From a virus: a stretch of 32,438 nucleotides of DNA. The first letter of the stretch is position 1. Each line of letters opens with the position of its first letter. This document shows positions 5,676 through 19,346 of the stretch, one piece after another. A program made the translations under genes and the position numbers. The DNA lies in IMG/VR virus record IMGVR_UViG_3300032053_000303, positions 1 to 32,438 of that record. One strand, 5' to 3'. Below the pieces are notes generated by a model. It was not told the DNA's origin. It worked only from the letters and a program-made list of their open reading frames with translations, and did no database searches.

Positions 5676-5759
5676 CCCTGCACCCCCTTTTTCTACTTGA
5701 CGGGCCGTTACATGTTTCCCGTCTTCTGCGATGTTCTCTCCCTATCTGAAAAACCCCAT

Positions 5760-6100
5760 GTGTTGCCCACTTTTTACCAGGGCAACACTTCCCCTAGCTT
5801 CGATTCACGTCTGCCAGATTGGGCAACACATCGCGTAGATTCACTTTTGTAACCTGCTCCGCCTTCCGCCTGGTCGTTACCGCACAAGGTAGATTCAAAC
5901 CGATACCCCGTTTTATGTGTTGTTGCCCCCTACTAAAGTAGTTGCTCTTTAGGCAACACTTGTTAGCAGGGAGAGGGTCTTTTTCAGGGCAACACTAGGG
6001 CAACACATCGAAATCGTATCCGAAACCGCCCCCACCTGTTGCCCACCTGTTGCCCAGGCAACACATTTTTGTATCTGGACCTGTTGCCCACCTGTTGCCC
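5760..6100. repeat. Cluster of 12 TGTTGCCC/GGGCAACA sites (iteron-like)
   Basis: TGTTGCCC starts at 5761, 5921, 6037, 6048, 6082 and 6093. Its complement GGGCAACA starts at 5780, 5821, 5987 and 5998, with one-mismatch copies AGGCAACA at 5951 and 6056. The pairs 5987/5998, 6037/6048 and 6082/6093 are each 11 bp apart, one helical turn, so bound proteins would face the same side. GTGTTGCCC and GGGCAACAC at 5760-5788 form a perfect inverted repeat, and 6048-6063 is a near-continuous palindrome. T-rich stretches between sites make this region less GC-rich than its surroundings. Such arrays serve as replication origins, partition sites, or terminase recognition sites. Confidence 0.8.
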
Positions 6101-6931
6101 TTAGTAACATTTTCGGGTGCCCGTTACCCCCCTGTACTGAGTCCCATCCGTCTTTAGGGGGCCCCATCCCTGCCATCGCCTCTCTGCCCCCCTACCCGCC
6201 TACCCTGCCCGGTCCGCGCCCGCCGCTCACCGCCTACCCTTCGCCCGCAGCACCCCCTAGAAACACCCCTAGGGGTAGGGGTCAACAAACAACCCCGCCC
6301 TTGTGCCTGTCCTCATGCGTACACGCAGCACATTGCCCGCCCATGTCAACGCACGGCAGCACAGCACCCGCCCCGGCACCGCGCGCCAGCAGCTCGACAT
6401 CAACCACCACGCCTATATCATGCCCGGCAGCACCCTTGCGGATGCCCCGCCCTGCCCCCACGCTGCCCAGCAGCCGCCGCAGCCAGCCTAGCCCTACCAT
6501 CGCACCAGCCTTGACCGCGCCACGCGCGCAGCACGAGCAGCCCGTCGGCGCTCTACCCTCCGGGACCTCAACGACGCCCGCCACCATGCCCACGACCGCC
6601 GGGACCACCAACGCCAGATACGGGCCACGAGAGCCGCAGGAGATAGAAAGAGCCCGCCGAGCAGTGAAACACCACCCGCCGGGCCCGCAGAGCCGTCAGA
6701 TTTCGACCACAGAGGCAACACGAGCACCCCCGCAGATACGAAAAGCGCCACCGGGACGCCTACATCTTGAGGATAACACAGAGGGGCAAGTCCCTTGCGA
6801 CAGGTGGGACATGCTGTTCGCAGACGAACGGCTGGTGAGAGCATAACCCTGCATCGCAGACGCGGCTCCGAGTCCAGATAGAGAAGCCTGTGCTTCGCTA
6901 ATCGAGGATTGCCCCGGAGATTGATTGCACG
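6101..6931. other. C-rich region without a convincing gene
   Basis: The plus strand here is strikingly rich in C and poor in G up to about 6650, unlike the coding regions around it. Open frames exist on both strands (for example 6301-6846 plus, rich in Pro, Ala, Ser and Thr; and 6303-6491 plus, closed by TAG and reopening as an Arg/His-rich frame to about 6770), but none has a ribosome site or recognisable domain. A perfect 12-bp palindrome ACCCCTAGGGGT lies at 6265-6276, followed by a further AGGGGT. It may be part of the origin/packaging region or a decayed gene. Confidence 0.5.
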
Positions 6932-6973
6932 CCCCCTTGACAAAGTAGGGGGATAGCCCGATACTGATATAGT
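6932..6973 (+). promoter_or_regulatory. Promoter/operator for the rightward small-gene operon
   Basis: TTGACA (6937-6942) is followed 17 bp later by GATACT (6960-6965); an alternative extended -10 is TGATATAGT (6965-6973). The -35 is embedded in CCCCCT(6932-6937)...AGGGGG(6947-6952), an inverted repeat that could be an operator. The 11-mer CCCCCTTGACA is identical to the one at the early leftward promoter (18857-18847, minus strand). Confidence 0.55.
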
Positions 6974-7031
6974 GTCTACAGACGGGGGCGGGGATTACAC
7001 CCGCCGAGTACAGAGGAAGGGGGAACGGGGC

Positions 7032-7262
7032 ATGAAGGCGAAGATGGTAACACGGCGGATGATGTGGCGGATGTGGGACAACGAGACAGGGCTAGACGAC
7101 TCAGGCCAGAGCCCGCTGACACAGGCAATCATCCAGGAGGGGCTGGACGCCGGGGGAGACGGAGACGAGGGCGACCCCCGAGCCGTGGCCGATGGTCTCT
7201 ACCGGCTGGCGAACGACATCGAGGAGCTGGCGAACGCGATATGCCAGAAGTTCGCAGTATGA
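7032..7262 (+). CDS. Small phage protein, first gene of rightward operon
   Basis: The 76-residue protein begins MKAKMVTRRMMWRMWDNETG and is acidic in its middle (GGDGDEGDPRAVADGL), ending in a helix (RLANDIEELANAICQKF). ATG 7032 follows AGGAAGGGGGA; the frame is open from GTG 6972, but that codon lies within the likely -10 region. Its TGA overlaps the next ATG. No recognised domain. Confidence 0.65.
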   Translation: MKAKMVTRRMMWRMWDNETGLDDSGQSPLTQAIIQEGLDAGGDGDEGDPRAVADGLYRLANDIEELANAICQKFAV

Positions 7263-7420
7263 GCCGCCGGGCACCGTGGGACATCGAGGTTGGCGGCGGC
7301 GTGGCGTGCGTAGTGCTGGCGCTTGTCATCGGGACCGGCGCCCCGGCGCTGTCGCTGGGCCTCCTCCTGATAGGGCTGGCGGCGTTGGGGGTCGGAGTAG
7401 CGAGCATCGGGAAGGAGTAG
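7259..7420 (+). CDS. Small two-helix membrane protein
   Basis: The 53-residue product starts MSRRAPWDIEVGGG and has two hydrophobic segments: VACVVLALVIGTG (about residues 14-26) and ALSLGLLLIGLAALGVGVAS (about residues 29-48), with a charged tail GKE. Translation is coupled through an ATGA overlap with the preceding gene. A tiny early inner-membrane protein like this could alter host membrane function or exclude other phages, but nothing specific shows that. Confidence 0.65.
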   Translation: MSRRAPWDIEVGGGVACVVLALVIGTGAPALSLGLLLIGLAALGVGVASIGKE

Positions 7421-7426
7421 AGAACG

Positions 7427-7702
7427 ATGGCACACACACCAGGGCCATGGAACGTATCGAGCGGCCAGGACGACGCCATCATCACGACGGACGATGGTTC
7501 GGGCGCATCCATTGCGGTTGTCTACGGAGCGCACGCTTGGCGCAAGGAATGGCAGGCCAACGCCCGCCTGATAGCCAGCGCCCCCGACCTGCTGGCGACA
7601 CTCAAGGCGTTGCGGCCGCTATTCGAGACGGGGGCCGCCGAGGAGTACGCCGCCGAGATAGAGGCGGCAGAAGCCGCTATCGCTAAGGCCGAGCCCCACT
7701 GA
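7427..7702 (+). CDS. Conserved small phage protein (GPW...NARLIASAPDLL type)
   Basis: The 91-residue protein contains HTPGPWNV near its start and NARLIASAPDLLATLKAL in the middle, the signature of a very common family of small phage proteins with unknown function. The C-terminal half is a helix rich in Ala and Glu. ATG 7427 follows GGAGTAGAG. It overlaps the next gene by one base. Confidence 0.75.
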   Translation: MAHTPGPWNVSSGQDDAIITTDDGSGASIAVVYGAHAWRKEWQANARLIASAPDLLATLKALRPLFETGAAEEYAAEIEAAEAAIAKAEPH

Positions 7703-7899
7703 TGACGCGCGACGACGACCACAACCACGAGGAGCGACCGCGGTGGGTGCTGGCGGGGGAGAGCCGGACCGCGCCGCACTACAAGTTCGAGGGATGCAGG
7801 GCGAGGGCGGGATGCCCGGCGCGCAGGCTGGCGGAGCCGGTGCGGGCGATGGTGCATTGGGTCAGCAAGGAAGGAGAACGGAGAGGATGGGCACGGTGA
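7702..7899 (+). CDS. Small phage protein, unknown
   Basis: This 65-residue frame starts at an ATG overlapping the previous stop (TGATG). The product (MTRDDDHNHEERPRWVLAGE) has a His/Asp-rich N-terminus and two cysteines (CRARAGC) that with the histidines could bind a metal. It is read through by the start of the next gene at 7887. No known family recognised. Confidence 0.55.
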   Translation: MTRDDDHNHEERPRWVLAGESRTAPHYKFEGCRARAGCPARRLAEPVRAMVHWVSKEGERRGWAR

Positions 7900-8036
7900 T
7901 CACCCTGACGGACAAAGAGACCACAATCCTGTTGGCCCTCGTCAGCGACGAGGAGACGGCGGACTATGAGAGGCGCGCCCTTGAGAAGACCATCCGGGAA
8001 CAGTTGGGAGTGTCGAACCACTACCCGGAGAAGTAG
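7887..8036 (+). CDS. 49-residue helical phage protein
   Basis: ATG 7887 follows AAGGAGAACGGAGAGG and overlaps the end of the previous gene by 13 bases. The protein MGTVITLTDKETTILLALVS... is short, helical, with a Glu-rich middle (DEETADYERRALEKTIREQL). The larger open frame from 7743 has a Gly/Ala/Gln composition typical of an out-of-frame shadow, so the short form is chosen. Function unknown. Confidence 0.55.
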   Translation: MGTVITLTDKETTILLALVSDEETADYERRALEKTIREQLGVSNHYPEK

Positions 8037-8107
8037 GGGGGCGCTCCTGCCCCTCTCTCTGGCGACTGACGGCAGCCGCCGGAGCGTAGAGCAGGAGAAG
8101 GGGACAA

Positions 8108-8293
8108 ATGGCAACCACAACCAAGAAACCATCTGCGGCCGAGCTTGCCAGCCGATGCAATGTAGCCGCCCGATATCTTGGGTCAGCGGCTACGGCGCTG
8201 AAACACGGGCGGCTGAGCACGGCCCGCCAGAAGATACGGGACGCCCTCGATGGCATCGCGCTCGTCCAGGAGGAACTCGGCGGAGACTACTAG
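8108..8293 (+). CDS. 61-residue helical phage protein
   Basis: ATG 8108 has AGGAGAAGGGG upstream. The product MATTTKKPSAAELASRCNVA... is mostly helical and ends in an acidic tail (LVQEELGGDY). It is the last gene of the rightward operon, followed by a terminator-like hairpin. No family recognised. Confidence 0.6.
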   Translation: MATTTKKPSAAELASRCNVAARYLGSAATALKHGRLSTARQKIRDALDGIALVQEELGGDY

Positions 8294-8315
8294 GGCAGGG
8301 GACCAAGGATAAGCG

Positions 8316-8345
8316 AGAGAGGGCCGCGCAAGCGACCCCCTCTCT
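8316..8345. terminator. Bidirectional terminator candidate between convergent operons
   Basis: AGAGAGGG (8316-8323) pairs with CCCTCTCT (8338-8345). A second inverted repeat, TCGGCTG (8349-8355) with CAGCCGA (8379-8385), follows. The two lie exactly between the end of the rightward operon (8293) and the end of the leftward early operon (8393). Neither has a strong U-run. Confidence 0.5.
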
Positions 8346-8392
8346 GTCTCGGCTGCCTTTCAGACCGGCGGGGCCGGCCAGCCGAGCAACAA

Positions 8393-8776
8393 TCACTCCG
8401 GCACCGGATACATCCCCGTCAAGCAACCCGCGAGCCGGTCGATACAAACCTCCAGGGCATCTCTGTAACGCTGAAAGACGCGACCCACACCGACGTATTC
8501 CACGACCTGATCATCCATCAGCGCGAAGGCTAGGTGCAGGGCCTCATGACAGGCATCTCGCCATGCCTTAACGCGGGATACTTCCTTGAAGACAGCCGGG
8601 TAGACGGTAAGTACTGCCGTGCAGCGGTCCTGAGTCCAGTTGATCTTCATGTCCGTGTCGTCGCCGCGGCTGGGATAGTCGAACCGCACGGTCCAGCCAT
8701 GGAGGCCGAGCCGGCCCATCCACTCGACCATCCAATTCTCGATCTCTTCCCGCGTTGCGTGGTCCGGCTTGGTCAT
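8393..8776 (-). CDS. Small HExxH putative metallopeptidase
   Basis: The 127-residue protein holds ACHEALHLAFALMDD around residues 83-97, an HExxH zinc site flanked by helices, with a preceding short beta-rich part (HGWTVRFDYPS, then CTAVLTVYPAVF). This layout resembles minimal zincins such as SprT-like or uncharacterised phage peptidases. It is the last gene of the early operon and starts at an ATGA overlap with the gene before it. Substrate unknown. Confidence 0.6.
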   Translation of the reverse strand: MTKPDHATREEIENWMVEWMGRLGLHGWTVRFDYPSRGDDTDMKINWTQDRCTAVLTVYPAVFKEVSRVKAWRDACHEALHLAFALMDDQVVEYVGVGRVFQRYRDALEVCIDRLAGCLTGMYPVPE

Positions 8777-9075
8777 CTCACTACCTCACACGTTCCCCTG
8801 CCAGAGAACGTCCCCTGCCAGACATCGACCCAGTAGTACGGCCCGCCGCCCCGGTCCTCACAGACCACGACCTCCCCGGTGGAGAGCCGGAGCACCGTCC
8901 CGAGATCCCACGCATAGCCACAGGCGGCGGCACCAGGGTGGGCCGGCTGCCCGTTTGCCATGTAGCACTCCGCGTCGTTGCAGCTCTCATAGCTGTACCA
9001 CGTTATCCAGCAGTCGCCGCCCTCTTCGCTTCTTCCGCTAGGGCCAGCGCTCGCTCCACGTCCGCCGCTGTCCAA
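8773..9075 (-). CDS. Cysteine-rich double-psi beta-barrel-like (3D/RlpA-type) protein, start uncertain
   Basis: The recognisable part (8773 to about 9030) reads CWITWYSYESCNDAECYMANGQP..., then ACGYAWDLGTVLRLSTGE and VVCEDRGGG...VDVW, a pattern seen in 3D-domain and RlpA-like barrels that act on peptidoglycan (YxS...MANGxPxxxGxxAC...GTxLRL...VxDRG...VDxW). Six cysteines suggest disulphides and export. No ATG fits; a TTG at 9075 is given as start, but the frame is open up to 9294, where VLLIVMVGAVLVLA would make a membrane anchor. Most of that upstream part overlaps another gene (9003-9251) in a different frame. Domain confidence moderate, start poor. Confidence 0.5.
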   Translation of the reverse strand: MDSGGRGASAGPSGRSEEGGDCWITWYSYESCNDAECYMANGQPAHPGAAACGYAWDLGTVLRLSTGEVVVCEDRGGGPYYWVDVWQGTFSGRGTCEVVR

Positions 9076-9251
9076 TGTGGGAACTCTCTCTTGAAGAACT
9101 CCCTGTCCCGCAGCAGCCGCAGCCTGTAACTCTCCTGGCGTCGGCTCCAGGGCAACGCAAACTGCGGCAGGCAGGGTTCCGCCCATCGCCCAACCAGGTA
9201 TGAGGCACACGTCAACGCTATCCCCACCGACACTCCTATCAGAAATTCCAT
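9003..9251 (-). CDS. Small membrane-anchored helical protein
   Basis: The 82-residue protein starts MEFLIGVSVGIALTCASYLVG, one N-terminal membrane helix, followed by a charged helical region (QESYRLRLLRDREFFKREF) and an Ala-rich end. ATG 9251 has AAGGGGGAG four bases upstream, a strong site. It is embedded in the open frame of the barrel-like protein. A pair of nested membrane genes recalls spanin gene pairs, but no lipobox is seen and it is in the early operon. Confidence 0.6.
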   Translation of the reverse strand: MEFLIGVSVGIALTCASYLVGRWAEPCLPQFALPWSRRQESYRLRLLRDREFFKREFPHWTAADVERALALAEEAKRAATAG

Positions 9252-9323
9252 TCACTCCCCCTTTCGCCAGCACTAGCACCGCGCCCACCATCACGATCAG
9301 CAGGACGCGGCGTGTCGGCCACC

Positions 9324-9581
9324 TCAGCTCTGCCTCTCTTCGCTAGAACCCGGCAGGTCGGCGAGCTTGTGGACCGGCCAGGCCGCCATCTTGTCGGCGT
9401 GTAATCTCGCGGCCGTTGACAGCGCGGGGTCGCCCCCGGCCCTGTCGTTGAGGGTCGCCCAACACCGGACGACCTCCCAGCCGAGCACGTCCTGGCCCCG
9501 GATGAGGAAGACCGGCTCGTCGTCGGGGATCTTCCCCTCGGGGTCTTGGATACGTTGGTAGTCGTCCCTTGCGTGGATCAT
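9324..9581 (-). CDS. Conserved small phage protein (RIQDPEGKIPDDEPVFLIRGQD type)
   Basis: This 85-residue protein carries RIQDPEGKIPDDEPVFLI followed by RGQDVLGWEVVRCWA, a motif found in many small phage and bacterial proteins of unknown function. ATG 9581 follows AAAGGGGG. The CsrA frame upstream has no stop before this gene and runs on in another frame through most of it. Confidence 0.7.
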   Translation of the reverse strand: MIHARDDYQRIQDPEGKIPDDEPVFLIRGQDVLGWEVVRCWATLNDRAGGDPALSTAARLHADKMAAWPVHKLADLPGSSEERQS

Positions 9582-9738
9582 AGTTCCCCCTTTCTTGTGT
9601 CAGCTCCTCGCGGAGCACCTTCACCTCTTCCGGCGCGTCTATTTGGAGGTTGACCTTCCTGTCGACGCGGATCAGGATGCGGCGCCCTTCGACCTCGATG
9701 ACAATAGCTTCTCCGTCCCTACGATTGAGTATCAGCAT
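9343..9738 (-). CDS. csrA: CsrA-like RNA-binding regulator with run-on C-terminus
   Basis: The first ~46 residues are CsrA: MLILNRRDGEAIVIEVEGRR, then RKVNLQIDAPEEVKVLREEL. RNA-contact residues Leu4 and Arg6/Arg7 and the arginine of VLREE (position 43, equivalent to Arg44) are kept. CsrA dimers bind GGA motifs in mRNA leaders and block or stabilise translation. The usual length is 55-75 residues, but here the frame stays open for 131 codons with a Pro/Arg-rich tail overlapping the next gene. A one-base shift would end it at a TGA right after the REE codons, so either a sequence error or a natural frame loss is possible. It overlaps the methylase end by 7 bases. Confidence 0.7.
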   Translation of the reverse strand: MLILNRRDGEAIVIEVEGRRILIRVDRKVNLQIDAPEEVKVLREELTQERGNYDPRKGRLPTYPRPRGEDPRRRAGLPHPGPGRARLGGRPVLGDPQRQGRGRPRAVNGREITRRQDGGLAGPQARRPAGF

Positions 9739-10256
9739 CGGTCTTTCCTCCAGTCCCACCCGCTGAACAGTGGCCGCCCGAATAGTTGTCCCTTCCGCCA
9801 GATCACGATCACGCTGTCCCATGTCGCCGCGGAGGGCGCACCCTTGTACGTGAGCCGGCCCTTGAGCAGCCGGATCTCCGTCGCCTGCATGACCCACTGG
9901 TGCCACCAGCCGGCGCTCGTGCTGGCGGGCAGCAGCGCCACGACGAGCTCCATGCGACCGCAGGCGACCTCGAAGTAGCACTTCTCGACCCACTTCTCGA
10001 CGACGCCCCGACCGTAAGGGGGGTTGACGTAGGCGCTCCCGCCGAACCAGGGGACGGCCAGCCCGTCCTCGAAGAGGGGACTGCCGGGCCCGTCCTCGAA
10101 GAGGGGACTGCCGGGCCCGTACCAGTCGTCGGCCTTCTTGTTCTCCTTGTTGGCGCAGGGGTCGAGGCCGAAGTCGCCGAACTCACGCCGCAGGGCGTCG
10201 ATGAGGGCGTCGGGGGTCTCCCAATCATCGCGGCTCTTGGTGCCGGGGTTACTCAT
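9732..10256 (-). CDS. dam: Phage N6-adenine DNA methyltransferase (Dam-type)
   Basis: The 174-residue protein shows DDWETPDALIDALRREFGDFGLDPCA near the start and YVNPPYGR, the NPPY catalytic motif, followed by a helical and strand region ending VIVIWRKG. This matches the phage Dam-type N6-adenine methylases that protect phage DNA or time its replication. The start chosen is ATG 10256, in an ATGA overlap with the preceding short gene. Between the two motifs a 27-bp tandem duplication adds the repeat GPGSPLFED twice. Frame is intact, so the enzyme may still be active. Confidence 0.85.
   Translation of the reverse strand: MSNPGTKSRDDWETPDALIDALRREFGDFGLDPCANKENKKADDWYGPGSPLFEDGPGSPLFEDGLAVPWFGGSAYVNPPYGRGVVEKWVEKCYFEVACGRMELVVALLPASTSAGWWHQWVMQATEIRLLKGRLTYKGAPSAATWDSVIVIWRKGQLFGRPLFSGWDWRKDRC
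10061..10114. repeat. 27-bp perfect tandem duplication in methylase gene
   Basis: The unit at 10061-10087 is repeated exactly at 10088-10114, and the first bases of a third copy follow. It is in frame and encodes two successive 9-residue copies of GPGSPLFED just before the NPPY block. Confidence 0.9.
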
Positions 10257-10399
10257 TCGACCCACGGGTCATCTGCCGGGTAGCCGAAGCGACCGGCGAG
10301 GCGCTGCGCCATGCGGCGGGCGTAGCAGTATTCGCAGCCGCGCAGGCAGCCGGTGATGGGGTTCCATGTCCGGTCGCACCAGCCTATCGGGTTGCTCAT
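10253..10399 (-). CDS. Truncated Gp37/Gp68-type (radical-SAM-like) protein
   Basis: The 48-residue product MSNPIGWCDRTWNPITGCLR...CEYCYARRMAQRLAGRFGYPADDPW is the N-terminal end of the phage Gp37/Gp68 family, including its CxxxCxxC cluster-binding site. Full-length members run to roughly 250 residues; here a TGA ends it directly after PADDPWVE. Both ends are ATGA overlaps with the neighbouring genes, so it is still embedded in the operon. It is either a remnant left when a deletion joined the methylase gene to it, or a minimal iron-sulphur peptide. Confidence 0.7.
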   Translation of the reverse strand: MSNPIGWCDRTWNPITGCLRGCEYCYARRMAQRLAGRFGYPADDPWVE

Positions 10400-10968
10400 G
10401 CCTTCTTCCCTCTCCCTGCCAACCCCTGCCGGTTGCGCGCCGCGAGCCGCTCCCCTGCCGCCTTCCGCTGCTCCAGCGTCCACATGCGTTTCTTGGGATT
10501 GACAGGCGTTATTCTCAGCGCCGGCAGTTCGTCCAGCGACACGCCGAGCAGCTCGCACACCTTCACCATGTTACGGTACTCGGCTTTCAGCCCGTCGGCC
10601 TGCGTGATCTTCTTGTGGATGGCGAGGGCAAGACCCTTCGCTGCCTCGGCCAGCGCAGCCTTCCCCGCGTCGATGGTCATTCCCTTGATCTCAGCCGGGG
10701 GCTTGTCTCCGTTCATGCTTCGCAGCCTTTCGCAACTTATAGGGATGACCGAGTCGGCTCCCTTGTACAGGGGTTCGTCGAACTTCACCCGCGCCGTCCG
10801 TCCCTCGATGACCACGACAGTCCCCCCAAACCCGTTCCACGTAACCCTGTCGTTGACGGCGGGCCTGTAGACATCGCTCTCCAGGCGGAACACCGTGCGC
10901 GGGTAGAGGTCGTCGACCGTGGGCGCAGGATCTCCGCGATCCGTCTCCCTTCTACGCGGGTCGCCCAT
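10396..10968 (-). CDS. Phage protein of the replication operon, unknown
   Basis: The 190-residue protein has a beta-rich middle (RVTWNGFGGTVVVIEGRTARVKFDEP, SH3-like), a helical region (KAALAEAAKGLALAIHKKI) and a C-terminus with basic repeats (RMWTLEQRKAAGERLAARNRQG) that look nucleic-acid binding. It overlaps the previous stop by 17 bases and the next start by ATGA. No family name can be given. Confidence 0.6.
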   Translation of the reverse strand: MGDPRRRETDRGDPAPTVDDLYPRTVFRLESDVYRPAVNDRVTWNGFGGTVVVIEGRTARVKFDEPLYKGADSVIPISCERLRSMNGDKPPAEIKGMTIDAGKAALAEAAKGLALAIHKKITQADGLKAEYRNMVKVCELLGVSLDELPALRITPVNPKKRMWTLEQRKAAGERLAARNRQGLAGRGKKA

Positions 10969-11164
10969 CCGGTCCCGCCTCGCCCTTCCTCACGATGGTG
11001 ACGTACTTCTCCAACAGCGCGTCGACCTCCTCTCCGGGAATGAGGTAGACGGCGACGTTGCGAACCAGCTTGCCGTCTATGATCTCTGCCAGGAGCTTGA
11101 CGCCACTGCTTGTAGTAACATTGGCGAGCCCGGTGTAGCCGGCCGGTATGATCGGATCTGGCAT
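10952..11164 (-). CDS. Small phage protein, unknown
   Basis: A 70-residue protein beginning MPDPIIPAGYTGLANVTTSS with a beta-rich core (VKLLAEIIDGKLVRNVAVYLIP) and a short helix. Its ATG is separated from the helicase stop by one base, and it is preceded by a purine-rich GAGAGAGGG that serves as ribosome site. No recognised domain. Confidence 0.6.
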   Translation of the reverse strand: MPDPIIPAGYTGLANVTTSSGVKLLAEIIDGKLVRNVAVYLIPGEEVDALLEKYVTIVRKGEAGPDGRPA

Positions 11165-11165
11165 C

Positions 11166-12425
11166 TCAACCCTCTCTCTTTACCCCGTAGAGAACCTTCC
11201 GCCCTTCCTTCCCGGCGACACAGAATCGCACGTCGTCGCGTAGGAGCGCCGCCAGATTGGAGCGGTTGAAGCCCATCTCGGCGGCAATATCTGTCGCCGA
11301 CATCGCTCCTACGTCCAGAAGGAAGGTGTAGGCCTGGTCGCCCATGCTCACGGTCTTGTTCGCTACGAGTTGGGGGAACTCGCGCGCTGTGGCCGTTCGC
11401 ACCCCCGTCAGGCCGCCGTCATCGAACTCGAAGGCAAGCAGCTCCATCGGGGGTATCGCAATATCGTTGGCCTGCGTGATCTCGAGGGCCACGCCGATCG
11501 TCCGGCGGTCGGCCGATGGTTGAGCGGTCAGACGGACGCCGATATCCTGCCCGGCGTCGAACATCTGTGAGCCGTAGACGTGGCTGGTGTCGCCTCGTGA
11601 GGGATGCCCTATCGCAAACCAGGTCGGAGTCAAGGAACTCAGGGCGTCGACTATGGCGTTTCCGACCTCGTTGGTGTTCAGGTCCCCCATGCCCGAGCGA
11701 GAGATGCTGTCTAAGAAGACGACCTCATAGCCATCGGCTTGAATGGCGGCCTGCGCCTGCTCCAGGACGTCAGGGATCGACTTCCCCCGCGCTTGGAGAA
11801 CCCGAAGACGGCGCTTAGACGGCAGGCCGAGCGCGCGATTCACCCGCCAGATGCGGCGGTTGATAGAGTCCGCCGACCGCTCCAGGTTGATGAAAAGTAC
11901 ATGACGTTGCTGGACCGGCCACACCTTATCGCAACCCGCGTCGACGGAGACGGCCTTGAGGAAGCCGTCAGTGCTCTTGCCAGCGCCCGGCGGCGCGAAG
12001 AGGATCGTCCCTCCCCCCTCCAGGATGTAGGGCTTGAGTATGTAGGTGGGCGGCGGCGGCTCCTCATCGGCGCCACCCTCGATGATGCCCGTCGCTTTGA
12101 GGAACTCCGGCATGACCCGCTTGCAGAAGCGAGCGAGGGCCTCTTCCAAGAGGTCGAGGGGCAACGCCTTTTGCTCCACGGCCCCCAGATGGGCAAAGGC
12201 ACTCTTCGCCAGCTTCCGGCGGTCCTCGCCGCGGAGGAGATTGAAGAGATCGTCGGCCAGGTCATGCTCTCCTAGCCGGAAGGTAACACTGGCGTGAGGG
12301 CCGGTACGCGCCCGCCGGATATGCTCGGCGCGCAGCTCTAACGGGCCCACCTGCGTTGTCGAGCGGGCGTAGACGATACCGCCTTCATTTGCATATTCCC
12401 AACTAGAGGCCGGTGAGTCGGACAT
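11166..12425 (-). CDS. RecA-fold replicative ATPase (DnaB/RepA-like helicase domain)
   Basis: The 419-residue protein has an N-terminal mixed region, then Walker A FAPPGAGKST (about residue 137), Walker B EVVFLDSIS, and a C-terminal winged-helix-like end (MSATDIAAEMGFNRSNLAALL). This is the RepA/DnaB RecA-like ATPase layout used for replication helicases and their phage derivatives. AAGGAG precedes ATG 12425, and it overlaps the DnaB-N-like gene by 23 bases, so the two products probably act together as helicase or loader at the replication fork. Confidence 0.8.
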   Translation of the reverse strand: MSDSPASSWEYANEGGIVYARSTTQVGPLELRAEHIRRARTGPHASVTFRLGEHDLADDLFNLLRGEDRRKLAKSAFAHLGAVEQKALPLDLLEEALARFCKRVMPEFLKATGIIEGGADEEPPPPTYILKPYILEGGGTILFAPPGAGKSTDGFLKAVSVDAGCDKVWPVQQRHVLFINLERSADSINRRIWRVNRALGLPSKRRLRVLQARGKSIPDVLEQAQAAIQADGYEVVFLDSISRSGMGDLNTNEVGNAIVDALSSLTPTWFAIGHPSRGDTSHVYGSQMFDAGQDIGVRLTAQPSADRRTIGVALEITQANDIAIPPMELLAFEFDDGGLTGVRTATAREFPQLVANKTVSMGDQAYTFLLDVGAMSATDIAAEMGFNRSNLAALLRDDVRFCVAGKEGRKVLYGVKREG

Positions 12426-13203
12426 CGCGCTCCTTGCGTCGGGTTTCTATGACGGTGTCGACCAGGCGTGGGGTCGGTTTCTTAGCTTGTGGCGGTCGCC
12501 GCGCACGGTGGGCAGCGACGCGCAGGCGTGAGAAGATGGCCGCCAGCGTCCGCCGGGGATCTTCGTCGACCAGGAGCGGACGCAGGATAGCCGGCGACTC
12601 CTGCAACAAGGCCCGCCGGAAGGTGGTCTCGGTGAGTCGGTCGCGGAAGTCGACGGTGAACGCCTCCACGCCGGCGAACCAGTCATCCAGCGAACAGTCG
12701 TGGTCCTCTTCCTCCGTCGTGATGGGCCACGAGCAGGCGTCCAGGATGTCGTAGCAGCGGGTGACGTAGCCGTTCTCGGGGTAGTAGGTGTCCTTCCAGA
12801 AGAGGACGAGCGCAGAGAACAGCACGACCCTCATCCTCTCCGGGCCCCTGTCATCCATCAACCCGCGCTCCCAGGCCAGCAGGGTCTTCTCGAAGAGATA
12901 GCGGTGGAAGACATCGGCGAAGTCGTCCGGCGTCAGCTTCCCCTCTAGCAGGGGGATGGCGGCATGGGGAGCGTCTATCATCAGCCCGAGGACGGCTTGC
13001 TCCGCCTCCGCGTCGTAGGGGATGGGCAGGTGGCCGAGGTTGACGAAGGGGCGCTTGACCGCCTGCCGGCCGCGGTCGTAGCAGAGGCAGCGCCGGTTGT
13101 GCTCGGTGCAGTGTTCGTGGACAGCGGGGGACACGTCGCGTTCGGCGGCGCGAAAGCCCGCCTTCCAACAGGCGCATTGCTCGCTACAGCGGTCGTGCGT
13201 CAC
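12403..13203 (-). CDS. DnaB N-terminal-domain-like protein
   Basis: The 266-residue protein carries LPIPYDAEAEQAVLGLMID about residues 59-77, the signature of the DnaB N-terminal domain that binds primase and shapes the hexamer, followed by helical segments and a basic tail. A cysteine/histidine cluster before it (CSEQCACW, then HEHCTEHNRRCLC) looks like a zinc site, odd for DnaB. It lacks the ATPase half, which is encoded by the next gene. It starts at GTG 13203, overlapping the previous stop (GTGA). Confidence 0.7.
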   Translation of the reverse strand: MTHDRCSEQCACWKAGFRAAERDVSPAVHEHCTEHNRRCLCYDRGRQAVKRPFVNLGHLPIPYDAEAEQAVLGLMIDAPHAAIPLLEGKLTPDDFADVFHRYLFEKTLLAWERGLMDDRGPERMRVVLFSALVLFWKDTYYPENGYVTRCYDILDACSWPITTEEEDHDCSLDDWFAGVEAFTVDFRDRLTETTFRRALLQESPAILRPLLVDEDPRRTLAAIFSRLRVAAHRARRPPQAKKPTPRLVDTVIETRRKERDVRLTGL

Positions 13204-13424
13204 TCCGGCCGCGCCCCCGCCAGAAGCTCCGCGTCTTCAACTGCGAGTAGGAGCCGCACACGGATGTCGCGAGTGGACGCGAACTTGGCAAGAATGTCCT
13301 CACGGCAGGCACGACAAACCAGGAGTTTCGCCGTGTCAGACGGGAGACCCACCACGAGTCCCAGCGGTTGAGGCTTCCGCCGTTCGCTCCCACAACAAAC
13401 ACAGGGTGCTCGTTCTCTGATCAT
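13200..13424 (-). CDS. Small zinc-binding protein
   Basis: This 74-residue protein has two paired-cysteine sites, CVCC near residue 8 and CRAC near residue 37, separated by a basic loop, and a helical end. It looks like a zinc ribbon or knuckle of a phage transcription or replication factor. The start overlaps the preceding stop as ATGA. Confidence 0.6.
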   Translation of the reverse strand: MIRERAPCVCCGSERRKPQPLGLVVGLPSDTAKLLVCRACREDILAKFASTRDIRVRLLLAVEDAELLAGARPE

Positions 13425-13618
13425 ATCTGTTCCTCCTCTTCATCAGAAGACGTCTCATATCCCGTGCCGCCGCACCTCGCACAGACACGAGGGCTAGAAC
13501 TACCATCCGTTGTCGATGACTGATTCTTGTGTATCAGGCCAAACCCGCCACACTCCCGACAGGTTTCGGGCGGGCGGTGGTGTGTGTTCCCGCAAGTTGG
13601 ACAAGTGCAATCTGGCAT
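13421..13618 (-). CDS. DnaJ-like zinc-finger mini-protein
   Basis: The 65-residue protein holds CTCPTCG, CRECGGFG and CARCGGTG: paired CxxC motifs with the CxxCxGxG style of the DnaJ central domain, ending in an acidic tail (SSDEEEEQI). Such mini-proteins may act as zinc-dependent chaperone or DNA-binding accessory factors; nothing here fixes the role. Confidence 0.65.
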   Translation of the reverse strand: MPDCTCPTCGNTHHRPPETCRECGGFGLIHKNQSSTTDGSSSPRVCARCGGTGYETSSDEEEEQI

Positions 13619-13710
13619 CTCGCCCCTCCCTCACATAGGCGGGCCGGGCTGAGTCTCTACCCTCACGCCCGGCACACCACGAACGCGGCCGCAGGGCTGC
13701 TTACCGCGCC

Positions 13711-14013
13711 CTAATCCGTCACAACCCCCAGCTCGGCGAAGCGCCGGGTGGTGCCGCCGTCGACCTCGTGAGCCTCACGGCTGTGGCTCGCCAGGCGGAA
13801 GACGTACTCACCGACGCGATAGCGGATATCGTCCTTCAAGGCCCTCTTCGCTATTGTGTCCTTCAACTTGCGATTGGCGCTCCCGTGCTTCCGCGCTGCC
13901 TCCGCCGTCAGCAGGCGGTCAGTGATCAGTTGCTCGAGTTCGGGGTCTTCGAGGAACTCCTCCTCAAAGTGCTGCTGTGGGTCCTTCTTCGGCGTTGCCT
14001 TTGCTTTTGCCAT
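13711..14013 (-). CDS. Phage protein of unknown function
   Basis: The 100-residue charged protein starts MAKAKATPKKDPQQHFEEEF and is helical (ITDRLLTAEAARKHGSANRKL), ending in a short beta-like segment (GEYVFRLASHSREAHEVDGG). It overlaps the end of the RusA gene by 50 bases in another frame; AAGGAG precedes the ATG. No family recognised. Confidence 0.6.
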   Translation of the reverse strand: MAKAKATPKKDPQQHFEEEFLEDPELEQLITDRLLTAEAARKHGSANRKLKDTIAKRALKDDIRYRVGEYVFRLASHSREAHEVDGGTTRRFAELGVVTD

Positions 14014-14521
14014 GTTGACTCCTTTTGGGCGGATTCAGTAGATCGAACACTCGCTGGCCGTGCGCCAGGTAGAACCCGAAGATCTCCTCCCCCGTCTCCG
14101 GCATCTCACAGAGGAAGATGTGGACTCCCGGCTCGTCGCCGTAGATGCCGATCGGTGTGGGGGCGAAGACACGCGCGTCGTCGGTGATGGCGGCGCCCTT
14201 CGTCAGCGCGTCGAGCATCGCGCGGCAGAGCTTGTCCTCATCCGGCGACACGGTATGGAAGACGCGCTTGGGGGCCGACTTCACGCGGGGGAAGACGAAG
14301 ATGAGCGACGCGGCGATACTCCCATCGAAGGGCGAGCCGCACCAGTTGAGGGCAAGGTAGTTCTTCACCATCTGTCGCCACTCGCGGACGCCCGGCGTCA
14401 TCGAGGAGTAGATAGGCCTCCTGGTCTTTGGGTTGACGAACGCTTGGCCCGAACCTTGAGGCTGCGGTATGCCGTGTATGAACGCGCTGAACGTCCTTGC
14501 TTCCGAGCAAATGCCCTTCAT
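13964..14521 (-). CDS. rusA: RusA-type Holliday junction resolvase
   Basis: The 185-residue protein matches RusA: IHGIPQPQGSGQAFVNPKT near the start, then PDEDKLCRAMLDALTKG and ITDDARVFAP, whose spaced aspartates (DEDKL...LDAL...DD) form the metal site that cuts four-way junctions. Resolvases of this kind clear recombination intermediates before packaging. Its C-terminus is longer than usual (about 120 residues is typical) and ends in a basic tail overlapping the next gene. Confidence 0.85.
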   Translation of the reverse strand: MKGICSEARTFSAFIHGIPQPQGSGQAFVNPKTRRPIYSSMTPGVREWRQMVKNYLALNWCGSPFDGSIAASLIFVFPRVKSAPKRVFHTVSPDEDKLCRAMLDALTKGAAITDDARVFAPTPIGIYGDEPGVHIFLCEMPETGEEIFGFYLAHGQRVFDLLNPPKRSQHGKSKGNAEEGPTAAL

Positions 14522-14533
14522 GTCGCCTCCGTG

Positions 14534-14971
14534 CTAGTCGCTATGCTCGCGTCCTTCGGGCAGTAGGGGAGAATCCTGGCCGAGCGGCAGACTGCGAGCG
14601 CCCTGCTGCATCGCGTCGTCAACGTCCTGGAAGAACACGCGGTCCGTGCCGGTGATCATGAAGGAGAGAAATTCGTGGGCGAGATCGGCGACGCCAGATT
14701 CGGCGGCGGTCATCTTGGCCTTCATGTAGTAGAACAGGACCCGCGCCTTCTCGCGCCGCAACTGGTCGCGCTCTTTTTGGTCGCGGCCAGCCGGGACCGG
14801 GACATCTACGCGATAGCCGACGCGGTTGAGTTGGAACTCGAAGCGGATGAGGTCAGGGAAGTTCGTCCACCGGGTGACCTGGACGCCGTACCCCGAGATC
14901 AGGGAGTCGAGATCGTCCTGCGTCTTGTAAGCGCTAACCCCGGTGTTCTGGTATGCCCTACTACGGGCCAT
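14534..14971 (-). CDS. Conserved phage protein (MARSRAYQNT family), unknown
   Basis: The 145-residue product begins MARSRAYQNTGVSAYKTQDDLDSL, has a beta-rich middle (LIRFEFQLNRVGYRVDVPVP) and a helical region (RREKARVLFYYMKAKMTAA). This organisation recurs in phage replication modules. ATG 14971 has AAGAGG upstream; ATG 14986 is an alternative that forms an ATGA overlap with a possible 36-codon frame (15093-14983). Function unknown. Confidence 0.65.
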   Translation of the reverse strand: MARSRAYQNTGVSAYKTQDDLDSLISGYGVQVTRWTNFPDLIRFEFQLNRVGYRVDVPVPAGRDQKERDQLRREKARVLFYYMKAKMTAAESGVADLAHEFLSFMITGTDRVFFQDVDDAMQQGARSLPLGQDSPLLPEGREHSD

Positions 14972-15138
14972 GTCGCCTCTTTTCATGGCCCGCCGGCTAG
15001 GAGACGGTGAGATGAAACACCGGCAGGAGAACCGGCGGGCCTAAAATCCTCTCCCGCGACGAACCCCCTGCCGCTCTCATCCTTGGTTGCCATCGCCCAT
15101 CCGTGGGCCAGGGGGCTCGTTTCGTCCTCTAGGACTCG

Positions 15139-16338
15139 TCAGGCGGGGAGATTAGGCGGTCGGCACTTCGTGCAGTACGCTTGCCCGGACGTTGCCGGCG
15201 CCTGGCAGCACGAACAGAACGACCACTCCGTTCCCTTTTTGTTTGTCTCGGCCTTCGCCTTTGCCCAGCGCAGATTCTTGTCGGCGACCGAGACGTGGGC
15301 GCAGGCCATACGCGGGTCGCCCTCCATCTCCGTGCCGCCTTGGGGGGCGGGGCGGGCGGCTGTTGCTGTTGGTGCCCCCTGGGGGGCAGCAGGGGCGGAA
15401 GGCGCAACGCCCCCGTTCACAGTGTCCCGCCCGGCCGTTGCCCCGTCCTGTTCGTCATTGTGGGCCGGTGGAGCGGCACTTTCGGCCTCCTCCTCTGTCG
15501 GCAGCTCTGAGGGGTCGCCGAAGAACTCACCGGCCTCCTCCTCGTCCGGTTCTACGATCTCGCCCTCGATGGGTTCTGCCTCTCGTCCCTCCGGCAGGGC
15601 GGCGTATTGGGCTTTCACAGTTTCGCCCGTCAACCGCCGCAATTCCTCCACGTCTTGTTCAGCAATGAGTTGGAGCACATGAACTGTCTTGCGTTTGCCG
15701 TCAGCCGTCACCTCTTGGGGGATAAGGGTCAGTAGCAACTTGACGCCACTCACGTTCCCCCCGAGGACGCGGTCGTTCCGCATTACATCGAGCATCCCGT
15801 TGATGTTGAGGATGCTGTTGACGCTCGACGTATCGAGCTGGTGAACCCCGAACCTCCGGCAGCCGAGCACGAAGAACTGGAGCATCATGATGCGCTTGCA
15901 GTCCTTGTTCTCGTAGGCCGGACAAGCAGGACAGTCCCCATAACCGACACCAGCGCAGGGTATCTCGACCATCTGGTTCTTCTGCGATTCGCTGCTAGCC
16001 CAGATGCCAAGTTCAACTTTGCCCTTCCACTTCGCTGAGTCGACGCGCGCGGTCGCCTTGTACCCGTCGCCCTTGCAGACGAGACCCGTTGTCTGCTTGT
16101 AGGCGCGGTAGTATTGAGAGGCGATCTTCTCGTCGCTTTCGACAGGGAACATGATGCGGAGTTCGGTCGGGTTATCCCCGTAGACCTCGCGCGCATACGG
16201 CGCGTCGTTCAACACGAAATGCGGCGTAGCCTTGGGATACCAGACATTCGGGTTATTGGTGCTCTGCACCTTGACGCCCAGGTGTATCTTCCCAATTCGC
16301 GGAATACGTCCCTGTTCGCTTAAACCTCTAATCGGCAT
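15139..16338 (-). CDS. Gp3-like / recombination-directionality-factor family protein with zinc sites
   Basis: The 399-residue protein starts MPIRGLSEQGRIPRIGKIHL, continues NPTELRIMFPVE and YRAYKQTTGLVCKGDGY, and holds a cysteine cluster (CAGVGYGDCPACPAYENKDC) near residues 140-160, matching the family of phiC31 Gp3-like proteins (some annotated 'hydrolase or metal-binding'). phiC31 Gp3 directs serine-integrase excision, but the integrase here is a tyrosine type, so this may be a replication or recombination factor. A second cysteine group (CSCCQ...CTKC) sits in a C-terminal extension. ATG 16338 overlaps the nuclease stop by 11 bases; the frame opens at 16359. Confidence 0.65.
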   Translation of the reverse strand: MPIRGLSEQGRIPRIGKIHLGVKVQSTNNPNVWYPKATPHFVLNDAPYAREVYGDNPTELRIMFPVESDEKIASQYYRAYKQTTGLVCKGDGYKATARVDSAKWKGKVELGIWASSESQKNQMVEIPCAGVGYGDCPACPAYENKDCKRIMMLQFFVLGCRRFGVHQLDTSSVNSILNINGMLDVMRNDRVLGGNVSGVKLLLTLIPQEVTADGKRKTVHVLQLIAEQDVEELRRLTGETVKAQYAALPEGREAEPIEGEIVEPDEEEAGEFFGDPSELPTEEEAESAAPPAHNDEQDGATAGRDTVNGGVAPSAPAAPQGAPTATAARPAPQGGTEMEGDPRMACAHVSVADKNLRWAKAKAETNKKGTEWSFCSCCQAPATSGQAYCTKCRPPNLPA

Positions 16339-17329
16339 CCTCGTCCTCCCCCGCGGCAAGCGGCACGTACTTCACCTGCCAGAAGCGGTCAACTCGCGCC
16401 TCCATCGCTTTGACGTTCCGCTCGATTTGCTTCCCCGCGACCATCGCCACGTCCGGCACGAGCGCCTGCTCGACGCCCTCGAACTTCTGGCCGAGCCGCT
16501 TCCGCAGCGCCTCGTACTCCGACGCCCGGGGCTTGAGTTCCAGCAGTCGGCGGACGTCAGTGATCACGTCCTCGTCGGTGATGACGCCGACATCCGGCGC
16601 CATCGCCAGGGTCGCGTTGCAGGCCTCGGTCTGCCAGAACGAGCAGCCGGGGCAGACGTCGGGGTCGCAGATCGGCTCCGGCTCGCTGCCGGCGGCGATG
16701 TGCACGTTCACTCGCTCGCACTGCTTGAGCAGGCTCTCAGCGTGGTCGTAGTCCAGCGGCACCGCGACCGGCTCCCACCAGCCCGTGAGTCCGATGGGAA
16801 GAAGTATCCCCTCCTCGTGACCGTCCAGCAGCTCGTAGACCATGAGCTGCGAGACCCAGTTGCGGACACGCCAGTTCTTGTTGTGGATGATGTCCTGGTA
16901 GGTCGTCACGCCCCGCATGAGGTTGGGGTGGACCGACTTCACCTCGAAGGGGACGTACTTGGCGTGGCCGTTGCCGTTGCCGGACGGTCGGGCCTCCAGG
17001 TCGGGACGGCCGGAGATCTGATATTGCTCCCACTCCGCCGGCCGCTCGATGCTCTTGATGTCCCACCCCATCTCCATCATGAGACGGACGGCCAGCTTTC
17101 CGATCTCCGTCCCCATGAGGAACCGCGCCTGTAGGCTCGGCGGGAAGGGCCGCTGCATCGCTCCCTTCGTCCGGCGCAGCACCAGGAAGCGGTCGCAGGG
17201 GTGGCCCATTTGCGAGGGGTTGTTCCAGCGCGCGGTCGCCACGCTGGATCGGGCCTGCATCATCTGTTCGAAGTTCTCACGTAGCCGGGCAGCGTAGAGT
17301 CCGGCCACTGGTTCGGTAGTTGTAGTCAT
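16328..17329 (-). CDS. Cas4/RecB-like PD-(D/E)XK nuclease with likely iron-sulphur cluster
   Basis: The 333-residue protein has an N-terminal cysteine (GHPCDRFLVLRR), then the catalytic elements GRPDLEA and FEVKSV (aspartate and ExK), followed by QLMVYELL and the cysteine set CDPDVCPGCSFWQTEAC. One early and several late cysteines are the layout of [4Fe-4S]-bound Cas4/AddB-type exonucleases, which resect double-stranded ends for recombination. It lies between a small unknown gene and the Gp3-like gene, a common phage pairing for DNA end processing. Confidence 0.75.
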   Translation of the reverse strand: MTTTTEPVAGLYAARLRENFEQMMQARSSVATARWNNPSQMGHPCDRFLVLRRTKGAMQRPFPPSLQARFLMGTEIGKLAVRLMMEMGWDIKSIERPAEWEQYQISGRPDLEARPSGNGNGHAKYVPFEVKSVHPNLMRGVTTYQDIIHNKNWRVRNWVSQLMVYELLDGHEEGILLPIGLTGWWEPVAVPLDYDHAESLLKQCERVNVHIAAGSEPEPICDPDVCPGCSFWQTEACNATLAMAPDVGVITDEDVITDVRRLLELKPRASEYEALRKRLGQKFEGVEQALVPDVAMVAGKQIERNVKAMEARVDRFWQVKYVPLAAGEDEDAD

Positions 17330-17341
17330 GGCGCCTTCTCC

Positions 17342-17587
17342 TCAGTTGTCCGAGAACGTGTGAAACGCTCGCTCCACGCGCTCCCTGTCTATGCGGGTGA
17401 AGTAGTAGCTGGTGACGTGTGGGCAGCCGGGCTTTGGAACGCTCAGAAGTTCGAGGATGGGGTGTTGTCGCCCGCTGGGGTCTTCCGTGAAACCGACGAC
17501 CTTCCCGTAGTGCCAGGGCACCGGCGCTCTCGCATCCGGGTCGCGTACCCGCGCAAGTTGCCCCACCTGGAGATCCGGCCCGCTCAT
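17342..17587 (-). CDS. Small phage protein, unknown
   Basis: The 81-residue protein starts MSGPDLQVGQLARVRDPDAR; a beta-barrel-like segment (PWHYGKVVGFTEDPSG) resembles small SH3-like modules, and the rest is polar with a CxH pair (PGCPHVTSYY). The ATG at 17587 forms an ATGA overlap with the preceding stop, so it is preferred over 17599. No function known. Confidence 0.6.
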   Translation of the reverse strand: MSGPDLQVGQLARVRDPDARAPVPWHYGKVVGFTEDPSGRQHPILELLSVPKPGCPHVTSYYFTRIDRERVERAFHTFSDN

Positions 17588-17988
17588 CTCTCTGCCCACT
17601 CCGCCGTCCAGTCTTTCAGCGTCTCCAGGATGTCGAAGCGGGTCAGGAGGTTCGCCTCCCGCTCCTCATCCGGCTGGTAGTGATAGACCAGCTTCGTCTC
17701 GTAGACCGGCTCCGGGCATTTGCAGCCGAGGAAGTGAGCCTCCTGCGTCCGCCCGCACTTCGTACAGTTGGTCCGCCACTCGACATGAATGGCCGGCCGC
17801 TCGCCGAACGACCGCAGGCGGAAGTCGACCTGGACATGGCCGTACATCTTCGCCATGTCCTCAAGGGCTTGCAGTTGGGCCTCCGGCCAGCGGGCGTGTC
17901 CTGTCGGCTTCGGGGTCGTGGTCAGTGGGGTCCTCGTTCGACGTCCCGTGGCCTCGACCAGTGCTAGGTGTCCTGGTCGTCCTCGCAT
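17584..17988 (-). CDS. Putative zinc-binding phage protein
   Basis: The 134-residue protein has a basic N-terminus (MRGRPGHLALVEATGRRTRT), a helix (EAQLQALEDMAKMYG) and a strand-rich part with four cysteines (CTKCGRTQEAHFLGCKC), forming a probable zinc ribbon. GAGGTGAAGC precedes the ATG. It lies directly after the HNH gene in the early operon. Role unknown. Confidence 0.6.
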   Translation of the reverse strand: MRGRPGHLALVEATGRRTRTPLTTTPKPTGHARWPEAQLQALEDMAKMYGHVQVDFRLRSFGERPAIHVEWRTNCTKCGRTQEAHFLGCKCPEPVYETKLVYHYQPDEEREANLLTRFDILETLKDWTAEWAER

Positions 17989-18055
17989 GCTTCACCTCGC
18001 CTTCTTGGGGGAGGCCGCCCGGCCCGAGCCCTCGTTACGGGCGGCCCCCGCTTGA

Positions 18056-18796
18056 TTAGCACTCTCCAACGGCTGGACAGATTCCTCGATAGGCAACCCC
18101 TTTCCTACAGACGCGCAAACGTGAAGAAGATGATTGCTCCCTGGCCCGCTCGGAGAGCTTGGGGTGCGTAACCTTGCGGGCCGGGGCCGGGAAAGAAGAC
18201 CGCGCCGCCGCCGGGGTTACTGGTGGCGAGGTGAACCCAGCGGTGGGAACGCGCGCAGAAAGCCGATGATGAAGACGGGTGTGCTCGCCGTTGCCGAGTA
18301 CCCAAAGATTGCTGGGATCGTTGTTGTCGGGGTCACCGTCAAGATGGTGGACGATTTCATGCGGCTCTAGGTAGCGGCCCAGAACCTTCTCCATGACGAG
18401 GCGATGCTGGTAGACATAGCCGTGGCAAGCATACGGATGATCGGGGCGGAACTCTGCCAGGCGGCCACTGCGCCGGACGACACCGCCGTTCTTCTGCCGT
18501 CCCCGCAGGCTGGCGGCGATCTTGGCGCGCGTTTCCAGGGAGACGGGGCGACCTACCAGCGCCGCCCTGGTCTCAGGCGGCAGGGGACGGCCCTTGAGAG
18601 CAGCCGCTATCTTGGCGCGGGTGGCGGCGGTTTGCTTGCGGCCTGGACGAGAGGGAAGTAGACTAGGGGCGACAGACCTCTGTCCGTTTACCTGAATAGG
18701 GTGGGGCTGTAGCTCATTTGGGAGAGCGCCTGCCTGGCAGGGAGATGGGACTACGGAGGTCTGTTCTGTGTTTTTACGGGTTTCTTCCCCTGTCAT
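18056..18796 (-). CDS. NUMOD3-HNH homing-type endonuclease, first early gene
   Basis: The 246-residue protein has NUMOD3 repeats (TRAKIAAALKGRPLPPETRAA, then SLETRAKIAASLRGR) followed by an HNH core: HGYVYQHRLVMEKVLGRYLEP, HEIVHHLDGDPDNNDPSNLWVL and HTRLHH. Such enzymes are mobile DNA cutters. The ATG at 18796 has AAGGAGAG six bases upstream. Codons 20-32 are the complement of a tRNA-Ala half-gene, so the coding start overlaps the presumed attachment core. It heads the leftward early operon behind the promoter at 18852-18825. The C-terminus after the core is long, polar and probably not conserved. Confidence 0.8.
   Translation of the reverse strand: MTGEETRKNTEQTSVVPSPCQAGALPNELQPHPIQVNGQRSVAPSLLPSRPGRKQTAATRAKIAAALKGRPLPPETRAALVGRPVSLETRAKIAASLRGRQKNGGVVRRSGRLAEFRPDHPYACHGYVYQHRLVMEKVLGRYLEPHEIVHHLDGDPDNNDPSNLWVLGNGEHTRLHHRLSARVPTAGFTSPPVTPAAARSSFPAPARKVTHPKLSERAREQSSSSRLRVCRKGVAYRGICPAVGEC
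18703..18739 (+). other. 5' half of a tRNA-Ala(GGC) gene: attP core candidate
   Basis: GGGGCTGTAGCTCATTTGGG starts a 37-base match to bacterial tRNA-Ala, continuing through the D-arm (GCTC...GAGC) and the anticodon stem/loop CCTGC-CTGGCA with GGC anticodon. It diverges at the 3' side of the anticodon stem and no T-arm follows, so it is not a working tRNA gene. Tyrosine integrases often use a crossover within the anticodon loop of tRNA genes. A 5' rather than 3' half is less usual and would need a phage-supplied promoter; TTGCGG-N17-TAGACT (18636-18664) is a weak match. Confidence 0.6.
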
Positions 18797-18824
18797 CCCA
18801 AGCTCTCCTTATTTATGCCCCTTC

Positions 18825-18852
18825 ATTTTACGCCCATTGTTAGTAATGTCAA
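18825..18852 (-). promoter_or_regulatory. Early leftward promoter
   Basis: On the minus strand TTGACA (18852-18847) is followed by 16 bp and TAAAAT (18830-18825). It points at the HNH/replication operon starting at 18796. It is preceded by CCCCC, giving the 11-mer CCCCCTTGACA shared with the rightward small-gene promoter. The repressor promoter diverges from it 41 bp away. Confidence 0.7.
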
Positions 18853-18893
18853 GGGGGTAAACCCGATTTCTCAAAAGAAAGTTACGTACCATG

Positions 18894-18922
18894 TTGACAA
18901 AACGGGGTCGGCCTGCTAACCT
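18894..18922 (+). promoter_or_regulatory. Repressor promoter giving a leaderless mRNA
   Basis: TTGACA (18894-18899), 17 bp, then TAACCT (18917-18922) with a TGC extension. Transcription should begin at about 18929-18930, the position of the repressor ATG. An inverted repeat TTTCT/AGAAA (18867-18880) and the palindrome TACGTA (18883-18888) between the two divergent promoters are operator candidates. Confidence 0.7.
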
Positions 18923-18929
18923 AGAGGTG

Positions 18930-19169
18930 ATGACACCACTAGGAAGATTCGTCAGAAGTCTTCGGACGGCTCAGGGTCTTACCCTGGACCAGCTCGCTCA
19001 ACGGAGTGGGATAACACTCCGTTCCATCCAGGCCATCGAGACGGGCAACTCCGAGCGTCCCCGCGTGGAAACGCTGCAAGCCCTCGCTGCGGGCCTGGGC
19101 ATCGACGTGAGTACCTTGGCTGCGAAGGTCTACGAAGCCCCCCCGCCCGAGGTGAAAACCGCCGTCTAA
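18930..19169 (+). CDS. Cro/cI-type XRE repressor
   Basis: The 79-residue protein MTPLGRFVRSLRTAQGLTLD is a single XRE helix-turn-helix domain: QLAQRSGITLRSIQAIETGN is the recognition region, followed by RVETLQALAAGLGID. It lacks a separate oligomerisation or protease domain, so it is a Cro- or minimal repressor-like protein. The frame is open from 18891, but that ATG overlaps the -35, while ATG 18930 matches the family start and the predicted transcription start. It diverges from the early operon and is followed by small genes leading to the integrase, so it is the likely lysogeny regulator. Confidence 0.85.
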   Translation: MTPLGRFVRSLRTAQGLTLDQLAQRSGITLRSIQAIETGNSERPRVETLQALAAGLGIDVSTLAAKVYEAPPPEVKTAV

Positions 19170-19187
19170 CCCCGTGGAGGTGAAGGC

Positions 19188-19346
19188 ATGAGAACCCTCG
19201 GCCTGAAACTGCTCGCCACCTTCGTTGGCCTTGTGAGTTTCAACTGGGACTGTGTACGTGCAGCCTGGGATAGCAAATACCGCGATAGGCTCCTCGAAGC
19301 CGAGAAACGGGGCGACCGCCGGTGGCCCTTCAATAGGATGGATTGA
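19188..19346 (+). CDS. 52-residue small protein
   Basis: ATG 19188 follows GTGGAGGTGAAGGC. The product MRTLGLKLLATFVGLVSFNW has a short N-terminal hydrophobic helix and then a charged, Trp- and Arg-rich tail (KYRDRLLEAEKRGDRRWPF). It probably associates with the membrane. It uses nearly the same ribosome site as the next two genes. Confidence 0.55.
   Translation: MRTLGLKLLATFVGLVSFNWDCVRAAWDSKYRDRLLEAEKRGDRRWPFNRMD

Follow-up and report, generated by a model that had tools for sequence, protein, structure and literature searches.

A possible integration-dependent switch in a soil phage: half a tRNA-Ala gene separating early promoter and early operon

INTRODUCTION

The DNA-processing and transfer genes of Tn916 are without a promoter when the element is integrated; in the circular form, transcription from Porf7 crosses the attachment site and enters those genes, with an insulating terminator on one side and a cis-acting RNA on the other (PMC11658703). 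Mycobacteriophage BPs and its relatives have integration-dependent immunity, with attP in the repressor gene and integration activating the repressor (PMC9934374). Where mycobacteriophages and Gordonia phages have an attP that matches a tRNA gene, they use a tyrosine integrase and a core of 30-45 bp, which is usually the 3' half of the tRNA (PMC10865867). Restoration of the 5' half is seldom seen in bacteria (PMC8371274). In Islander, a 5' tRNA fragment was recorded in 159 of 3919 tDNA islands, and 2083 islands have anticodon-centred sites (PMC4383910). Here we describe a phage locus in which a 5' half tRNA-Ala, a probable attP core, lies between an early promoter and the early operon.

RESULTS

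The window and its relatives

The window, by which we mean the whole 32,438-base stretch analysed, is a phage genome segment (an IMG/VR virus record from soil, classed as linear) that carries head and terminase genes, replication genes running leftward, and an HTH repressor and a tyrosine integrase running rightward. Its first 5.6 kb are present at 100% identity in a contig from another metagenome (L011). Since L011 extends beyond the left end of the window, the phage genome is larger than the window. Past that end, L011 continues for at least 7 kb (5626-12656), a part without a match to the right end of the window.

The att region was compared in two phages only, the window and a second phage on contig IMGVR_UViG_3300032053_000364 (L002), whose integrase is 80% identical to that of the window. 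Searches for further relatives of this region with the exonuclease, gene 14534, gene 22283 and two DNA motifs returned this same contig each time. A terminase scan revealed additional relatives, of which the close ones besides the L002 contig were L011, L012 and L014; these three share sequence with the window only left of about 11100, and none of the loci from the terminase scan contained a new copy of the half tRNA. The features of the locus are listed in Table 1.

Table 1. Positions of the features discussed, in window coordinates (P_L, early leftward promoter).
Feature	Position	Strand	Remarks
Leftward early genes: Cas4-like exonuclease, PF18897, RusA, DnaB N-terminal domain, AAA ATPase, small genes	9809..17988	-	
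Second G+C-rich stem-loop directly before gene 17988-17584	18005..18050	-	possible insulator
Leader ORF fused to HNH_3/NUMOD3 endonuclease	18056..18796	-	core = about codons 19-31
Conserved non-coding hairpin element	18090..18192	-	loop complementary to leader ribosome-binding site and start codon
Weak promoter-like site, TTGCGG-N17-TAGACT, pointing into half tRNA	18636..18664	+	7/12 only
Probable attP core: 5' half tRNA-Ala(GGC), acceptor 5' strand to just past anticodon loop	18703..18741	+	identical in L002 (9460-9498)
Leader ribosome-binding site and start codon, GGAGAGCTTGGGATG	18794..18808	-	kept in L002; 14/15 complementary to loop 18152-18166
P_L, TTGACA-N16-TAAAAT	18825..18852	-	11/12; L002 TTGACA-N16-TACAAT, 11/12
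GGGGGTAAACCC adjoining -35 of P_L	18853..18864	.	possible repressor operator; L002 near-palindrome CAAGGGGGTAAACCCCCCTTG
Repressor rightward promoter, TTGACA-N17-TAACCT	18894..18922	+	by inspection; kept in L002
HTH repressor	18930..19169	+	PF13560, PF01381
Tyrosine integrase, Xer-like, 284 aa	19960..20814	+	PF00589; intact, catalytic domain complete

The half tRNA is built like an attP core

The half tRNA, GGGGCTGTAGCTCATTTGGGAGAGCGCCTGCCTGGCAGG, contains the anticodon GGC, ends one base beyond the anticodon loop and occurs once in the window. The initial annotation had described a 37-base 5' half of tRNA-Ala(GGC) ending at the anticodon loop; this element is real and slightly longer, at 39 nt. 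By BLAST it aligned with a phage tRNA-Ala gene at 94.7% identity over 38 nt (E = 4e-8), and when joined in silico to a generic tRNA-Ala 3' half it was called as tRNA-Ala(ggc). The Rfam tRNA model gave 18.6 bits at 18703-18768 against a cut-off of 29, a sub-threshold score that is expected because only half a tRNA is present. ARAGORN detected no complete tRNA in the window, and neither a 3' half nor a complete tRNA was found in the window or the scanned viral relatives. An intron-split tRNA was rejected on these grounds. The element bears the 5' and not the 3' portion of a tRNA. In both contigs the site is uninterrupted and has phage DNA on both sides, as in free phage. The core ends at the anticodon stem-loop, a standard place of crossover, which favours its use as attP; we regard this use as probable.

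The order of elements in L002 is that of the window, with divergent promoters, P_L, ribosome-binding site, ATG, the identical 39 bases and the early genes. The flanks of the unchanged core are identical at 36/57 and 37/45 positions. Within the core, 9.3 synonymous sites carry 0 changes, compared with pS values of 0.40-0.47 before and after it. The part of the ORF before the core has pS 0.40 and pN 0.11 (few sites) and indels of 3 and 9 nt, and because of these values a short leader peptide may be translated from it; after the core, pS is 0.47 and pN 0.33. The exact word shared at the core is 42 nt long and ranks tenth among the words common to both phages, nine longer ones of up to 74 nt lying elsewhere. 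Because of these longer words, the argument for attP is carried by the tRNA match and the placement, not by identity alone.

An integrase alignment search of 84,980 genomes yielded no relative of the integrase, and hence no prophage bearing it, and the exact 37-mer of the half tRNA had no match in the same genomes; among viral contigs it matched only that of L002. Neither a prophage nor attL or attR was seen among the 84,980 genomes or the viral relatives. The proposal that the core is attP thus draws on tRNA-half anatomy, placement and conservation in L002, and the exact match to a host tRNA-Ala gene, whose absence the initial annotation had named as speaking against it, did not appear in these genomes. 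The likeliest reason for the absent genome matches is probably an unsampled host.

The core lies in a leader ORF that carries an HNH cassette

The leader ORF runs from 18796 to 18056, with GGAGAG as ribosome-binding site before its ATG, and the core begins after codon 18. In the window, an endonuclease with HNH_3 and NUMOD3 domains makes up the greater part of this ORF. The HNH cassette (about 18254-18650, minus strand) is cleanly absent from L002, where the ORF continues as a 143-codon frame of uncertain coding value that ends where the next gene starts. The half tRNA had been placed in the coding start of the first early gene. The position is right; the gene, as judged by comparison of the two genomes, is not a conserved early gene but a leader ORF bearing an HNH cassette, which is dispensable, being missing in L002. 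It is therefore loss of the promoter, and not loss of a gene product, that would matter on integration. The cassette, in frame with the leader ORF and beside the att core, resembles a mobile endonuclease insertion.

P_L is separated from the early operon by the core

P_L is the sole consensus site in 16300-19300. A scan for other leftward hexamer pairs of at least 9/12, covering 18,900-11,000 in the window and the matching part of L002 (about 8 kb), found none; it was of sigma-70 type and could miss promoters peculiar to the host. The presumed attachment site has this promoter on one side and the operon on the other, as in Tn916, and this is read directly from the DNA of both phages. A leftward early promoter at 18852-18825 and the order promoter, core, operon, both put forward in the initial annotation, were thus confirmed, the order in L002 as well. 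The operon was also said to end at 8393, and here we differ, since the leftward gene run goes on to the terminase. Its early genes mostly overlap or are closely spaced. Between them, 15139-16359 (minus strand) encodes a PF18897 'recombination directionality factor-like' protein, though the integrase is a tyrosine recombinase; this protein is 46% identical in L002, compared with about 80% for several neighbours. A small zinc-finger protein at 13421-13618 (minus strand) weakly resembles antitermination protein Q (PF03589, E 3e-4, below cut-off).

On the operon side of the core, the sequences TAGACT in the window and TAGGCT in L002 both lie exactly 38 nt before the half tRNA. This promoter-like site could serve the restored tRNA after integration, although it matches at 7/12 only.

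Repressor and integrase lie whole outside the core

The repressor ORF is listed from 18891; the position of its promoter and the alignment with L002 favour a start at 18930. The -10 hexamer ends 7 nt before this ATG, as it does before the counterpart in L002, and the repressor mRNA is for this reason probably leaderless or nearly so, which would be a hint to the host group. The repressor lies whole and outside attP, unlike that of BPs, and so would stay intact on integration, as had been proposed. The tyrosine integrase 1.2 kb from the half tRNA also proved complete. Its core-binding region begins near residue 10, leaving no space for an arm-binding domain. The 15-nt inverted repeats were considered as integrase arm sites and are unlikely to be such, since the Xer-like integrase is without an arm-binding region. 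Repressor and integrase form one rightward module on the P_L side of the core. No excisionase was recognised.

A conserved hairpin is complementary to the leader start

The hairpin element is 92-100% identical between the two phages in 25-base segments (23-25/25). It contains a 1-nt indel, and pS about equals pN in all six frames, indicating no codon signal. The hairpin itself (18134-18192) folds on the minus strand (z = -2.4 and -2.6), and the plus strand folds more weakly. It lies 0.6 kb downstream of the leader start region, and its loop is complementary to that region at 14/15 positions in both phages. Among 2000 Markov-resampled versions of the region, one gave an exact complementarity of 12 bases. 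The complementarity in both phages counts once, because it is common by descent. The element may serve to pair in cis, to insulate or to act in trans.

DISCUSSION

We propose that the half tRNA is the attP core and that integration cuts P_L from the early operon, which excision rejoins; we put the probability of this reading at roughly 0.6. The Xer-like integrase would act on a host tRNA-Ala(GGC) gene, with the crossover in the anticodon loop, and the phage would restore the 5' half of that gene, probably with a substitute promoter, in place of the usual 3' half. Because attP sits between them, P_L and the operon would be separated. P_L, its ribosome-binding site and 18 codons would come to lie at one prophage end, facing host DNA, together with the repressor and the integrase. 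At this junction, host upstream DNA and the 5' half would be followed by P_L, repressor and integrase. The other junction would consist of the early operon start, the 5' half and the host 3' half, making a whole tRNA, and the replication and late genes at this end would have no recognisable promoter. The integrase would keep its promoter, because it and the repressor belong to one rightward module, situated on the P_L side. From this layout we infer integration itself, its crossover point and the transcriptional silence of the lysogen. Read-through from the host could express the operon in the lysogen despite the lost P_L. If the reading is true, lytic expression would require prior excision and circularisation, the early genes would stay unexpressed until then, and the integrated prophage would not replicate in situ. 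A temperate phage would then be using its own genome topology as a second lock on lysis, beside the repressor.

The core could be attP and the early operon could still be served by a separate promoter to its left, around 18060 for instance; integration would then switch nothing off, and the P_L leader would matter only early in infection. The interval 18120-17995 is strongly conserved beyond coding constraint and contains GAGAGTGCTAATCA and a stem-loop before gene 17988, and this conserved GAGAGTGCTAATCA near 18060 could be a promoter that the sigma-70 scan missed. However, neither phage has a hexamer pair of at least 9/12 there, and GCTAAT is without a matching -35. We consider this alternative unlikely, but worth keeping in view.

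It is distinctly improbable that attP is elsewhere and that the half tRNA represents a leftover or captured piece (from transduction, a homing-endonuclease scar or a regulatory tRNA mimic). Such an origin would fit the HNH endonuclease within the same ORF of the window, as well as the failure to find a host match for the exact 37-mer or any attL/attR in the genomes searched. It fits poorly with 39 bases unchanged in L002, which has no HNH cassette, with a half tRNA that stops exactly at the anticodon loop and has an integrase nearby, and with a window and viral relatives that hold no other tRNA piece. That P_L makes a short RNA ending before 17990, unrelated to the early operon, with the replication genes started otherwise, is very improbable: G+C-rich hairpins (18134-18192 and 18010-18049) do separate the leader from the first conserved early gene, but both are without a T-run, no minus-strand terminator was called in the terminator scan, and no alternative promoter was found.

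If P_L is cut from the operon as we propose, integration might also split an RNA switch, since attP would have the leader ribosome-binding site (18794-18808) on one side and the hairpin (18134-18192) on the other. While the phage is circular, pairing within one transcript would control read-through or early translation. In the lysogen, the lone hairpin would insulate against host read-through, or act in trans on a superinfecting phage. We regard this extension as rather doubtful. The antisense RNAs of the P1 c4 and P4 CI type may be a parallel, and we take them as a lead only.

Cores formed by a 5' half are rare but known. Their apparent combination here with a cut between lytic promoter and operon was matched by no described phage, and no phage with attP between early promoter and early operon was found, in the literature searched, which mostly left out subscription papers. 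The locus is most readily set beside Tn916, in which integration likewise parts a promoter from an operon and circularisation rejoins them; Tn916, however, is a conjugative element with loose AT-rich targets, whereas the window belongs to a phage that has a repressor and probably targets a tRNA gene. With the mycobacteriophages and Gordonia phages it shares a tyrosine integrase, a probable tRNA target and a core length of 30-45 bp. Archaeal pTN3-like elements differ in having attP in the integrase gene, where this phage would have it in the early lytic leader. As in BPs, attP would lie inside a regulatory coding region and integration would alter the genetic switch, but here the repressor would be untouched and the lytic operon cut from its promoter.
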